Source of the DNA: a virus
Length of the DNA: 34,086 nucleotides
Reading direction: 5' to 3' (one strand)
Virus record (IMG/VR): IMGVR_UViG_3300037198_000088
Coordinates: 10,001-44,086 of that record
In this document: in pieces, positions 20,139-28,462 of the stretch
How positions within the stretch are numbered: position 1 is the stretch's first letter
Layout: every line of letters starts with the position of its first letter
Translations under genes and position numbers: made by a program
The notes under the pieces: model-generated
Seen by the model: only the letters and a program-made list of their open reading frames with translations
Database searches by the model: none
Told to the model about the DNA's origin: nothing

Positions 20139-21341
20139 TTAGGCTGCCTTGCATTTGAAGATGTAATAGGGGTGGCCATACGCGGGCGTAGAACGACCTC
20201 GCGCTTGGCACTCCATTACATTGCGCCGACCGAGGTCAGCGTTCTTGCCGTCATACGGCCAGTATTGCGTCGTTGCGATAGGCTCGCGCTCACTCCACAC
20301 TAGACCTCCCAGTTGCGACATTGCGATCTGTTCCGCAATGACGTAGAAACTAGTGGGGTCCGCCGCGAGTGACGGGAACGTTTTGTCGGTTGACGACGTT
20401 GCAATCGTGAGCTCTGGCGCCTGAAGAATCGCCTTGAACCCAAGTGCTTGTAATTGCCCCTCAACTTTCTGCTCGATCATCGCTCCGACGTGCTCGACGG
20501 GTAATCCACCGGCGATGTCCATTGACCCGGCGCCTAGACTCGACGCGGGGTACGCGATAGACTTTGCAGCAAGCAACTGGCTCAGTCGTGGGCATAGCGT
20601 GGTAGGAGCCAGAATCCCGAGCGGACGAAGATAGCGTGGCATCAAGCCATTACTCATCCTAATCGATCCGATGTACGCCGCAATGTGTTGCAGGTACTCC
20701 AGTGACGCGTCAAACGTTGACGTCAAAACGTTCAGAGCACCGGGATAGATCGTGAGGTTTGGATCGGTAGTTGGGCAGGTGCCCCCACCGCCTCCCCATG
20801 CGGATCCTTTGGTTCCCGTGAAAATGTTACTGAACGTTCCACAGTTCGCTTGAACACCGGTGACCGGGTTGTACGGATGCGACTGAGAAAAGAATACTTG
20901 CGAGTCATAGGTTTGTTGCGCCGTTGCAGCCGCTTCACCACCGAGCAAGTATTTCCCAAGTTGCAACTGAGGATAGATCACCCCTTGTTGCGTAACCTGC
21001 GTGACCCAGTCCTCGATCAGGTTTACGCCAGCGCCATCAAGATCGGTGAACTGGTTCAGTGAAATCTCGTAGCGCCCCCCGACATTTCCGGGAACGAACG
21101 AGGTTTCTACCAGGGCAAGTTCGCGCGCCGGAAGGTCCGTAGACATACCGAGCGATTCAAGGTAGGCGGTTTCAAGTACCCACGTGACAAACTGTTTTGC
21201 AGAACGTGTGGGAATAAGGCGGGTGATCGCGGGATACCAGCAATTTTCAGATTTCAAGAAGTTGGCGTATGCCGTTTCCTTGATCTTGAGAATCGACTGG
21301 TCGATCCGGTATTGGAATGATGGATTGTAAAAACCAGGCAT
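20139..21341 (-). CDS. Major capsid protein (Mu gpT-like)
   Basis: 400 aa, somewhat longer than Mu gpT. The N-terminal arm (about 1-60) leads to a region with L-E-T-A-Y-L-E-S-L-G-M. The segment V-F-F-S-Q-S-H-P-Y-N-P-V-T-G-V-Q-A (about 159-175) resembles the F-x-x-x-H-P motif of Mu-type major head subunits. A Gly-rich loop (about 196-205) and a core of helices and strands follow. It is preceded by the decoration gene and the S49 protease-scaffold, the usual capsid module order. Confidence 0.82.
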   Translation of the reverse strand: MPGFYNPSFQYRIDQSILKIKETAYANFLKSENCWYPAITRLIPTRSAKQFVTWVLETAYLESLGMSTDLPARELALVETSFVPGNVGGRYEISLNQFTDLDGAGVNLIEDWVTQVTQQGVIYPQLQLGKYLLGGEAAATAQQTYDSQVFFSQSHPYNPVTGVQANCGTFSNIFTGTKGSAWGGGGGTCPTTDPNLTIYPGALNVLTSTFDASLEYLQHIAAYIGSIRMSNGLMPRYLRPLGILAPTTLCPRLSQLLAAKSIAYPASSLGAGSMDIAGGLPVEHVGAMIEQKVEGQLQALGFKAILQAPELTIATSSTDKTFPSLAADPTSFYVIAEQIAMSQLGGLVWSEREPIATTQYWPYDGKNADLGRRNVMECQARGRSTPAYGHPYYIFKCKAA

Positions 21342-22208: not shown

Positions 22209-23837
22209 TCACCCACCGAAGCGTCGAGTCATAAACTCGGCTTGTTCGGTTGCTGTAATGCTGCGGACGGCGTGGAAACCATCTTCGGTCTTGAAGAACT
22301 TGGGCTGATCGACTTGAGCGACCATGGACGTTGCGAACAATCGTTCTTGGTGCTCAGTGAGTGGTTCTTGCTGAGTACCGTTGACAGGCTCAGTTGCAGC
22401 TTGGATGGTTGACTTCGCACCGAGTCCAGCGATTGCAGCAGCAACCGTAGAAGGTGCAGCGACACGCGGCCAATTCTTAACTGCGTCCTCGACAGTTTTG
22501 AGGTCGGCTGACATCAAAGTCTTTCGCTGCGCATCGGAAAAGTCGGTGCGGTTTGCGAGTAGAGCGGTTCGCGTCGTAGCTTCAAGCCGCGTGATACGCG
22601 ACGCCGTTTTTTCCTCGTTGTCCTTGTCGTTGTCGGAAGGACCACCTTCGTTGTCCTTGTCGGGCTCCGCATGTTCCGGCTTTGGTTCAGCTTCGGCTGC
22701 CTTAGGGGCAGAGTTGCAAACCGCGATCATCTTGCGCGCCTTCTCTTTGTTTTCGTCAGTCTCGTTTGGGTCATCTACGGCTGCTTGTAGCGCCGCCATT
22801 GTTTCAGCAAAACCTGCCACTTTGGCCTCCTTTTTTGGTGTTGATTGCGAGGCCCGTTGTGCCTCAAATGTGCCACTGCTTAGCAGTGAAATAACTTCGT
22901 CTTCAGTTGCAATCTGATCGGCTAGACCCTTATCGATTGCAAACTGTCCATGAAAGCACGCTGCCTGGTAACTACGTACTTGCTCGATTGAAAGTGGTCG
23001 GTACGCGGCAACGCACTTGAAGAATTCCTCAGCGAGCGCGTTGCATTCAGCATCGAACGCTGCGACTACTTCGTCTGTCTTCTCGATGTGCGGGTTGGTG
23101 TCCGCCTTGCGAATTCCGCTGGAAACTACCGTGTATTTGAGCCCGAGTTGCTTGTCGGCTCCGGTGCAATCGATAAGATTGTGAATGACACCGATGCTGC
23201 CGACCATTCCAGTTTGCGGAATGAAGATATAGTCTGCCGCACAGGCGAGCGCGTAGGCTGCGCTGAAAGATTTTGAGTCAACGTAGCAGTACAGTTTCTT
23301 TCCTGCTGCTGCCATGATGGCGCGAATTTCCTGGACTGTGTCGAGGCATCCATCAACAAGTCCACCTCCCGAGTCGATGGACATAAGCACGCAACGAGCT
23401 GGACTCGATGCGGCGATTCGAATGCGTTGCTTGATCGCATCGTACGAGTCGGACCACGTCTCATGATGGGCAAGAGGCCCACCCCAACCAACGTCAACTA
23501 TCGCTAACCTATCGGTGCTGCGCGGTCTAGGTGGGCGAGGGATGTCGAACTGTGCGCCGACTAGGTTGATTGGAGCAGCGAGGTAACCAGGTACGAGCCA
23601 CTGACGAGTTTCGTACAGAGTAGCTCTCGACGCTTCATGTTCCGGTTCAGGTTCGCGAGTTTCTTTCGAGGGATCCGATTCTTCATCTTCATCGTCACCA
23701 TCGTCAATATCATCTTCGTCATCACCATCCGGATCTTCATCCACGCGAGTCAGAGGAGGAGCTTCGACATTTTCAGTCTTGAGCCAATCTGCATACGAGG
23801 CAGATGCTTTGACCTGATCGAATTGCTCGGCGCTCAT
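22209..23837 (-). CDS. Prohead protease of the S49/SppA type with C-terminal scaffold
   Basis: 542 aa. Residues 33-66 are highly acidic. Residues about 108-320 form the S49 domain: S-I-D-S-G-G-G-L-V-D-G, nucleophile Ser192 in S-F-S-A-A-Y-A-L-A, G-S-I-G-V, and a likely general-base Lys244 in S-S-G-I-R-K-A-D; the 52-residue Ser-Lys spacing equals that of Bacillus SppA. After about residue 330 a Lys/Glu/Ala/Pro-rich helical region looks like an internal scaffold cut during head maturation. It overlaps the upstream topoisomerase gene by ATGA. Confidence 0.88.
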   Translation of the reverse strand: MSAEQFDQVKASASYADWLKTENVEAPPLTRVDEDPDGDDEDDIDDGDDEDEESDPSKETREPEPEHEASRATLYETRQWLVPGYLAAPINLVGAQFDIPRPPRPRSTDRLAIVDVGWGGPLAHHETWSDSYDAIKQRIRIAASSPARCVLMSIDSGGGLVDGCLDTVQEIRAIMAAAGKKLYCYVDSKSFSAAYALACAADYIFIPQTGMVGSIGVIHNLIDCTGADKQLGLKYTVVSSGIRKADTNPHIEKTDEVVAAFDAECNALAEEFFKCVAAYRPLSIEQVRSYQAACFHGQFAIDKGLADQIATEDEVISLLSSGTFEAQRASQSTPKKEAKVAGFAETMAALQAAVDDPNETDENKEKARKMIAVCNSAPKAAEAEPKPEHAEPDKDNEGGPSDNDKDNEEKTASRITRLEATTRTALLANRTDFSDAQRKTLMSADLKTVEDAVKNWPRVAAPSTVAAAIAGLGAKSTIQAATEPVNGTQQEPLTEHQERLFATSMVAQVDQPKFFKTEDGFHAVRSITATEQAEFMTRRFGG

Positions 23838-24826
23838 GCTGCCTTGCCTTCAACGACGCGCTCGCGATATGCGTCAATCACGCGAGGGTTGATGTACTTT
23901 TCTTTGCAGATTGCTGGAGTGTTGCCGAGGAATTTGGAAGTTTCTTCAATCGCTTTCTTGATGTTCGCATCTGCTTCTTTCGCAGAAATCTTCGGGGGTG
24001 GCGCACTTTTCGAAAGCACGTCGAAGCACATTGAGCTCGCGTGAAACGTGCGAAAGTCTTTTGCTGTGATCTTGTCCGGCGATGCCTTCTCTAGATACCC
24101 GTTCACATCTGCCGCAGTCGAACCGAAGATCTTGTCACCGGGTTTCTTGCCTTCGGTGCGCTTCACGATCTCGGCAGCCAAGTCGCCTTCAACTCTACGG
24201 TTCCATTCCTTATGCGACTTTCCGGGAAACTTCAGGTTGATCGAACCATCTGAATTCTTTATGACATGCTCGGCGCGCAGAGTGGTAGCGCCTACGCTCC
24301 CCGTATCCTTCTCTGCATCGCTGCCTCCGACTCGTATTGTAGTCGTATCGATCAAACGAACGACCACCGCGCTATCAGCAGTCTTTGGATCATTCGATTT
24401 CGAATCACTTTCGATAGTCTTTCGAAGAGCTCCGATGTTCTTCGCCATCTTGGCAGCTTTCCCAAATTTGTAATCGGCTTGCTTCTGCATGTGCTCATCG
24501 GTGTATTGATACGTTTTGACTTCTTTACCGTTGCGGTTCTTGCGGAAAATGACTGCTTTTAGGCCAGTTTCACCGCTGAACTCATGAACCTTGTTGATCG
24601 TGTCGAGTGGAAATCCACCATAACCCTGCTTGCCGTTCTTGTCCTTTGGCTGGCGTGACGCGAGATCGGCGCGCGAAAGCTCCTTGCCTTCACCATGGAT
24701 CTCCGACTTTACGGTCTTCGACTTGTCACTTTCGGAACTGCCACCTCCGCCACCAGAACCGAACTTGCCGTCGTCCTTGCGCGGGTGCTTCGATTCCTCA
24801 AATTCCTTTTCAGCACGGAACGTCAT
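23834..24826 (-). CDS. Type IB DNA topoisomerase in the head gene cluster
   Basis: 330 aa. Residues about 113-325 match bacterial/poxvirus-type topoisomerase IB in order: a helical region, T-T-T-I-R-V-G-G (Arg165), G-S-V-G-A-T-T-L-R, L-K-F-P-G-K-S-H-K (Lys203), D-V-N-G-Y-L, T-A-K-D-F-R-T-F-H (Arg259, His262) and L-G-N-T-P-A-I-C-K-E-K-Y-I-N-P with the nucleophile Tyr311. The usual catalytic set is present. The N-terminal K-H-P-R-K-D-D-G-K-F-G-S-G-G-G motif is a type I associate with phage head-morphogenesis proteins and differs from cellular enzymes. Coupling by ATGA to the portal and to the prohead protease suggests a virion or packaging role. Confidence 0.85.
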   Translation of the reverse strand: MTFRAEKEFEESKHPRKDDGKFGSGGGGGSSESDKSKTVKSEIHGEGKELSRADLASRQPKDKNGKQGYGGFPLDTINKVHEFSGETGLKAVIFRKNRNGKEVKTYQYTDEHMQKQADYKFGKAAKMAKNIGALRKTIESDSKSNDPKTADSAVVVRLIDTTTIRVGGSDAEKDTGSVGATTLRAEHVIKNSDGSINLKFPGKSHKEWNRRVEGDLAAEIVKRTEGKKPGDKIFGSTAADVNGYLEKASPDKITAKDFRTFHASSMCFDVLSKSAPPPKISAKEADANIKKAIEETSKFLGNTPAICKEKYINPRVIDAYRERVVEGKAA

Positions 24827-26798: not shown

Positions 26799-27048
26799 GT
26801 TGCAGTTGACGGCCTGCACGCCGTTGATGGTTTCTTGATGGTTTCCGGGCAGCTGCGGAGCTCGGCATACGTTGCAGTTGACGGCCTGCACGCCGTTGAT
26901 GGTTTCTACTCAGGCCGTCGTCTGTCATCCGTTGCGCGTTGTTGCAGTTGACGGCCTGCACGCCGTTGATGGTTTCTTCTTCGATGTGGCGAGTGATGCC
27001 CTGCCATTGCTTGTTGCAGTTGACGGCCTGCACGCCGTTGATGGTTTC
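26799..27048 (-). CRISPR. CRISPR array, 4 identical repeats and 3 spacers
   Basis: Four identical 36-bp repeats lie at 26799-26834, 26871-26906, 26941-26976 and 27013-27048, with spacers of 36, 34 and 36 bp. On the minus strand the repeat begins GAAACCATCAACGGCG and ends GCCGTCAACTGCAAC. An internal ACGGC / GCCGT pair forms a 5-bp stem with a 6-nt loop. The TGCAAC end resembles Cas12f-type repeats. The 72/70/72-bp period is not a multiple of 3 throughout, which argues against a protein repeat. Minus orientation is inferred because the first repeat overlaps the effector stop; the spacers show no match to this window by eye. Confidence 0.92.
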
Positions 27049-28462
27049 ATGTCTCGCGGATCTCTAATGGTATCGTGTCTTTGGATGCCACATTGCGAGC
27101 GGCGTTGATTCTTCGGTGAATCACTGCCCCGCAACTACCACATTTACAGATCGGGTCCTCTCGATAACCAAACGATTCATCGGACTTTTCACCGCATCGC
27201 GAGCAAGTAACGGAATTTCCGTAGCACTCCACCTCTCGCACGCGAGAGCCAAATCGTTGTTTGAGCAGCGCCGGACCAAGTCTCATTACTGATATTTGAT
27301 TACTGGCCTTTCCGTCCCATTCATGTGGTAGGTGGCCCACATCACTGCTCTCATGCTCTACCTTGATCATCTCTACTGCAGCTAGTGGCTTGACAAGCTC
27401 ATTGTACAATTGATGCATGACGCGTCGTTTCATTTTCTGATGCAGTCTACTGACGGTAGTTCGATCGGCGGATGGACGCTGAATTGATTCTAGAGACTGC
27501 ATTTGTGCGATCTTTCGAGACAGATCATGATTGCGAGGATTCTCTATGATTCGATCATGCTCCCCATCTGATGTCGCGGCAATAACGTCTAGACCCATAC
27601 TCACTCCGATTACGCTTCCCGGAATTGCTTCTGGAAGCGCACGGATCGGTACTACCTGTTTGATCGCCGCATACCATCCATCAGCCTGCTGAGATATCGC
27701 AACTCCCTGCATGATACGTCCCGTTGGTATGCGCCCTGGTAACTTTCCTAAAAACTTCATACCTTCAAACGATATCTGGCAGTCGTATGATCGGTGTTGT
27801 CCGGGCTTGTCGTATTTGGGGGTAAAGTTACCGACCTTCAAATTCTCACCACTACGAACCAACAAAGGCATATCGTCTCCAAGACGGCGAAACCTCTTTC
27901 TTCTCTGATTTTTTGCTCGACCTTTTCCACCTGCAGCTTTTCCGCTAGCAAAAAAAGTATGAACGAGCGCTTGAACGAGATGCGCGCTTGGCACCACTTC
28001 AATAGGTTCTTCTAGATTTCCAAGAATCACTTCGCGAAAAAACTGATAGTCCTGCTTTAGTGGTCGCTCTTCGCTTGAGTAGAGCGCGATCATTTCCGTG
28101 AGCTTTGGTCTCCAACTGCACTCCGGAAGCTTGTTGGTTGCATCGTGTACGCATCTAGACCATTCACGGACCGCATCGCGATGTGCCTCCGCTGATGCTT
28201 TCGATTCAGATGCTGTCATTGATTCGTAATCGGGACGCGTCGGTTTCGGTGATACTAGTCCGTAATGCACCGCATACGCTTCTCGAGCGTCGATGACCTC
28301 CTGAGTCTGTTTGCATAGCCAGTTCCAGCATGTGCGCAATGCGTTTTGCAATGCGAACAAACGCGCTTCCTGCTCTCGCGTTGGATAGATTCTTATCACT
28401 TCACCGCGTATCTCGTGTCGTTCTGGAATTTCAAAATTAGCTTTCATTCTCAGCACCCACAC
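27047..28462 (-). CDS. Compact TnpB/Cas12-like type V effector, RuvC apparently dead
   Basis: 471 aa from a GTG at 28462; an ATG at 28447, two bases after the upstream stop, is equally possible. The N-terminus (I-R-G-E-V-I-R-I-Y-P-T-R-E-Q) is the first strand of the TnpB/Cas12 wedge domain. A basic N-Q-R-R-K-R-F-R-R linker lies near 185-193. RuvC-I is I-G-V-S-M-G-L-D with Ser288 where the catalytic Asp belongs. RuvC-II keeps Glu369 in I-K-V-E-H-E. The zinc finger is intact (Cys420/423 and 441/444), but RuvC-III reads H-R-R-I-N-A-A-R-N, with Arg451 in place of Asp. It should bind crRNA and DNA yet not cut. It is very small for Cas12 and TnpB-sized; the adjacent array makes it a V-U-like effector rather than a transposon TnpB. 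The stop overlaps the first repeat. Confidence 0.85.
   Translation of the reverse strand: MWVLRMKANFEIPERHEIRGEVIRIYPTREQEARLFALQNALRTCWNWLCKQTQEVIDAREAYAVHYGLVSPKPTRPDYESMTASESKASAEAHRDAVREWSRCVHDATNKLPECSWRPKLTEMIALYSSEERPLKQDYQFFREVILGNLEEPIEVVPSAHLVQALVHTFFASGKAAGGKGRAKNQRRKRFRRLGDDMPLLVRSGENLKVGNFTPKYDKPGQHRSYDCQISFEGMKFLGKLPGRIPTGRIMQGVAISQQADGWYAAIKQVVPIRALPEAIPGSVIGVSMGLDVIAATSDGEHDRIIENPRNHDLSRKIAQMQSLESIQRPSADRTTVSRLHQKMKRRVMHQLYNELVKPLAAVEMIKVEHESSDVGHLPHEWDGKASNQISVMRLGPALLKQRFGSRVREVECYGNSVTCSRCGEKSDESFGYREDPICKCGSCGAVIHRRINAARNVASKDTIPLEIRET

Follow-up and report, generated by a model that had tools for sequence, protein, structure and literature searches.

A type IB topoisomerase encoded between the portal and head protease genes of a phage, a probable head-borne enzyme

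The window analysed here, a stretch of 34,086 nucleotides, is part of a 44,086-base IMG/VR virus record and encodes a type IB topoisomerase (TopIB) among phage head genes. We consider it reasonably probable that this enzyme belongs to the phage head and not to the replication machinery, being recruited at or near the portal by an N-terminal tag, transported within the particle and acting on the phage genome.

The topoisomerase gene and its surroundings

The following features of the window carry the analysis; the five catalytic codons were located by Pfam and PDB alignments.

23834..24826 (-): type IB topoisomerase gene, 330 aa, ATG start (PF01028; AF2/Foldseek)
24743..24802 (-): putative head-cargo tag FEESKHPRKDDGKFGSGGGG, residues 9-28, in the disordered N-terminus (motif survey with scrambled control; pLDDT <50 for residues 1-42)
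23861..24487 (-): TopIB catalytic core, residues 114-322 (Pfam and PDB alignments)
24332-24334 (-): Arg165 codon
24218-24220 (-): Lys203 codon
24050-24052 (-): Arg259 codon
23921-23923 (-): Asn302 codon
23894-23896 (-): Tyr311 codon
24823..26451 (-): portal protein, Mu type (PF06074, E 1.6e-21), overlapping the topoisomerase start (ATGA)
22209..23837 (-): head maturation protease, S49/SppA type (PF01343, E 3.1e-26; phrog_53, E 3.9e-60), overlapping the topoisomerase stop (ATGA)
20139..21341 (-): probable major head protein, gpT-like, with weak matches (PF10124, E 0.0016, below its cut-off; phrog_371, E 2.6e-4) and 25% identity to the head protein of the related locus L002
31560..34037 (-): terminase large subunit (phrog_2, E 5.5e-15)

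The sole Pfam match of the ORF at 23834-24826 (-) was Topoisom_I (PF01028, E 1.2e-37, residues 114-322), with a score of 129.9 bits against a cut-off of 23.7. The top PDB sequence matches were all topoisomerases I/IB (6z01, L. donovani 2b9s, D. radiodurans 2f4q, human and variola). An AF2 model of the protein had a mean pLDDT of 80.7, with residues 1-42 disordered (pLDDT <50), and a Foldseek search with this model returned only TopIB structures as top matches (lowest E 3.6e-13). Profile, sequence and structure comparisons thus bear out the identity given by the original prediction. The catalytic Arg, Lys, Arg, His/Asn, Tyr set is present (R165, K203, R259, N302, Y311) and the pentad is kept across relatives. 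Arg165, Lys203, Arg259 and Tyr311 had been named correctly; His262, proposed as the fourth residue, is ruled out, since alignment places Asn302 at this position, in agreement with bacterial TopIB. The gene product can be taken as a TopIB with intact catalytic residues and is predicted to be enzymatically active. Comparison with the L002 topoisomerase gave a dN/dS of about 0.04-0.06 (dN 0.06; dS >1, near saturation), so that the protein is under purifying selection.

The coordinates, the Pfam and PHROG matches and the overlaps agree with the predicted position of the gene, between portal and protease and ATGA-coupled at either side; the overlaps read as TCAT on the + strand at 24823-24826 and 23834-23837. 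Topoisomerase, portal, protease, probable major head protein and terminase large subunit are all encoded on the same (-) strand, and the record places primase/helicase-like ORFs of this phage over 25 kb away from the topoisomerase. Like the genes of head cargo, that of the window topoisomerase has portal, protease and capsid genes around it. Polyvalent proteins in the strict sense carry several domains per polypeptide; the window protein has one domain and the tag, and several domains are found in its relatives.

Among close relatives, L001 is 99.8% identical to the window over 17 kb. In L002, portal, topoisomerase and protease follow one another as in the window; its topoisomerase protein is 89% identical to that of the window, its portal 30%, its protease 37% and its major head protein 25%. 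The DNA held in common with L002 forms one block:

23691..24811 (-): block with 80% nt identity to L002, from about codon 6 of the topoisomerase to its end, plus the first ~49 protease codons

This block starts near the tag and takes in about 49 codons of the protease, which suggests that the topoisomerase moves as a cassette. The topoisomerase of L011 is 47% identical over residues 33-324, is flanked by a major head protein and a tail sheath gene, and is without the tag. A scan of genome_contigs with the window clade gave no match, and only distant sequence relatives of the gene were found in cultured phages.

The window also contains, at 26799-27048, four exact 36-nt repeat copies with three unique 34-36-nt spacers, adjoined by a 471-aa Cas12f/TnpB-like gene (27047-28462 (-); PADLOC Cas12f, E 1.8e-18). 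Repeats and gene together are likely a phage-borne mini CRISPR array; the spacers had no matches other than themselves, in the window and in the near-twin L001. A similar repeat array lies upstream of the portal in L002 (best repeat copies 97% identical). To the left of the window, record positions of about 7500-10000 in L044 are given as N.

An N-terminal tag common to portals and head-linked enzymes

The motif HPRKDDGKFGSGG lies at residues 14-26 of the window topoisomerase. A DNA pattern for HPRxxDGKFG matched at least 120 IMG/VR stretches and a scrambled pattern of the same composition matched 1, which rules out a chance origin of the tag. Among the matches listed, a wider consensus, [FW]xE[SG]xHPRxxDGKFGSGGG, was common to nearly all of 134 in-frame hits. 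These listed matches comprised 81 non-redundant tag bearers, the window protein left out. Pfam assigned portals (PF06381 25, PF05136 3, PF06074 1, PF04860 1) and enzymes (Nudix 14, ADP-ribosyltransferase (ART) 9, TopIB 5, zeta toxin 4, PBECR 3, InPase 1) among the 81 listed, and PHROGs revealed minor head proteins and head proteases as well. The five TopIB bearers in this list were retrieved by the motif alone. Tagged topoisomerases were found fused to portals, Nudix domains and other domains. A tblastn search of INPHARED with the 25-aa tag gave no match.

The N-terminus had been described as resembling head-morphogenesis proteins. The survey with its scrambled control strongly supports this likeness, the bearers being mainly portals, minor head proteins, head proteases and, with ART, Nudix, PBECR and zeta, enzymes earlier proposed as head cargo. 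The tag may act as a targeting signal or tether.

Two large proteins with the motif were also observed. A 1351-aa protein (L051:964-5016) has five HPRxxDGKFG copies with ParB-like and PI3/4-kinase-like matches, and a 1208-aa protein (L064:1661-5284, also in L008) joins portal, inorganic-pyrophosphatase-like and ADP-ribosyltransferase-like parts and carries the tag of the window topoisomerase.

Portal fusions and gene order in other phages

A further group of TopIB proteins, clade C, came from a wider search, which gave 80 loci with a located TopIB domain; MAG contigs of genome_contigs supplied two. Portal and TopIB were encoded in one ORF in 27 of the 80. After clustering at 80%, 19 of 66 loci were such fusions, the portal preceding TopIB in all 19, and 18 more had a neighbouring portal. 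The tag (loose pattern) was carried by 45 of the 80 loci and the R-K-R-N-Y catalytic set by 78. A Pfam check of ten representatives showed seven portal fusions (PF06381), and Pfam confirmed the fusion in L166, a GTDB MAG contig. In L247, TopIB is joined to DUF2213, which is head-protease-like. Homologous TopIB domains are therefore found fused to a portal (PF06381) or to DUF2213, as head cargo is. An assembly artefact is an unlikely source of these fusions, given 19 non-redundant cases from different metagenomes with one MAG included. No portal-fused TopIB was found among the cultured phages of the INPHARED set. One ORF (L234:3240-5894) has a rubrerythrin/ferritin-like part between portal and TopIB.

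In several phages, portal structures have the C-terminus of the protein pointing into the capsid interior. By analogy, a TopIB fused there would lie inside the head. The fusion to the portal C-terminus in relatives, together with the adjoining head protease gene, would also suit a factor that removes twist at the portal during DNA pumping by the terminase, to be lost or cut off before maturation. Such a restriction to packaging is unlikely, because the tag is also found on enzymes without an evident packaging role and, to our knowledge, well-studied tailed phages package their DNA without a topoisomerase of this kind.

Large phages have a separate TopIB lineage, placed in proteins of 1000-3125 aa between portal and protease. 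These polyproteins join TopIB to 2H phosphoesterase or poly(A)-polymerase-head domains; one of 2806 aa (L016:1944-10361) contains a LAGLIDADG-bearing intein. In the other arrangement seen in large phages, TopIB is a small gene with the terminase on one side and the portal on the other. The gene-order survey proposed with the original prediction, which used whole records with a detected portal, showed that TopIB near the portal recurs: it lay within 10 kb and on the same strand in 19 of 23 records against 3.4 expected from random placement, an enrichment whose P value overstates independence, as only 5 lineages (at 60% topoisomerase identity) stand behind the 23 records. In L017, L038 and Xanthomonas PhiXhv-12 the TopIB gene is at least 37 kb from the portal, and in Rhizobium phages it lies near a DNA ligase gene.

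An IQ-TREE tree of 57 sequences separated the window clade, the large-phage clade and the portal-fused clade, and grouped the window clade with bacterial TopIB (UFBoot 100). Rows L036, L029 and L015 of the B lineage were not used because of very long branches or odd places, probably due to poor domain trimming. At least three TopIB lineages occupy the slot between portal and protease, and their separation in the tree suggests repeated recruitment to it. The gene might instead be an ordinary passenger of a late operon, serving replication or late transcription in the cell without any association with the head, and replication genes do lie near some phage TopIB genes. We regard this as quite improbable in view of the portal fusions, the head tag and the recurrence of the slot in these lineages.

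Head association, target DNA and known systems

The original prediction held that the enzyme may travel in the head or relax DNA during packaging or ejection. The portal-TopIB fusions and the gene-order survey speak for the first part: association with the head has good support in the family and is likely for the window gene. Tag, fusions and gene order together make travel of the enzyme in the head likely, and the window topoisomerase is probably carried in virions. As it is a separate protein, its tie to the portal is drawn by analogy with its fused relatives. The second part, a role during packaging or ejection, is possible, as is delivery into the host as an effector.

Under the head-borne reading, translation of the enzyme would fall between that of portal and head protease. 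The disordered HPRxxDGKFGSGG tag, seemingly the segment that links enzymes to portal C-termini in related phages, would draw it into the procapsid, to the portal or close by. The enzyme would then ride in the particle and relax twist in the phage genome at about the time of packaging or ejection, or within minutes of entry; its target might alternatively be host DNA.

In two published surveys, Nudix, ART, 2H, InPase and PBECR domains joined to a portal, a MuF protein or a head protease are described as packaged and injected (PMC5512222, PMC9503650). When their main texts were searched by term, no topoisomerase appeared among the effector domains. Packaged polyvalent or portal/MuF-linked effectors of the T4 Alt, Mu gp30 and SPP1 gp7 type resemble the window protein in their head-operon position (PMC5512222, PMC9503650). 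Fusion to portal and head protease also occurs in homologues of the window protein, and the tag is common to ART, Nudix, InPase and PBECR bearers. The window protein differs in having a single catalytic domain and no MuF domain (no Pfam, PHROG or NCBIfam match).

An exchangeable head-borne domain of this sort could, once ejected, relax the supercoils of the host chromosome and shut down or reprogram host transcription. This main rival has the packaging step in common with our explanation and differs in the target. The tag and the fusion partners are those of domains interpreted as injected effectors (PMC5512222, PMC9503650). However, TopIB has no particular tie to host DNA and relaxation of a whole chromosome by a few copies seems inefficient, and we therefore treat the host target as doubtful. 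Our leading, inferred reading is that the enzyme acts on phage DNA at about the time of packaging, ejection or entry.

Bacterial TopIB (D. radiodurans, PDB 2f4q/3m4a; Azospirillum and Sphingomonas plasmid homologues) are like the window protein in fold, in the catalytic residues, with Asn at the fourth position, and in being its closest branch in the tree, whereas the disordered N-terminal tag and the head operon are features of the window; the two bacterial neighbourhoods examined lie near ligD or metabolic genes. Vaccinia TOP1 is a TopIB carried in virions (PMC6336343). It is a precedent from an unrelated virus: poxvirus TopIB shares the fold and the particle-borne state with the window protein, but belongs to a eukaryotic virus with an unrelated packaging system. 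Jumbo-phage topoisomerase I (Motura, PaBG, RSL1, Lu11) has the TopIB fold of the window protein and is treated under DNA topology, without head linkage, in the accessible part of the source (PMC7824862); likewise, the accessible text on PaBG proteomics makes no mention of topoisomerase in particles.

Head-borne enzymes linked to portal or MuF proteins are a known kind, and the window TopIB is probably a new catalytic domain for this cargo class. We know of no topoisomerase at a portal. Literature searches found nothing on a portal-topoisomerase fusion, a head-borne TopIB in bacterial viruses or the tag; subscription journals were thinly covered, so this absence is not proof of novelty.

Tentatively, and with some doubt, one may go further and see a topoisomerase built into the portal vertex as a component that recurs, unrecognised, in many tailed phages. 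It would set the twist of DNA in the channel during packaging and ejection and would have been recruited several times independently, with HPRxxDGKFGSGG as the tether or targeting tag that head-borne enzymes have in common. The findings bear on how DNA twist is handled while the phage motor packs and releases the genome, a question that the portal-TopIB fusions make directly testable, and the tag provides a simple sequence handle to find head-borne enzymes in uncultured phages.
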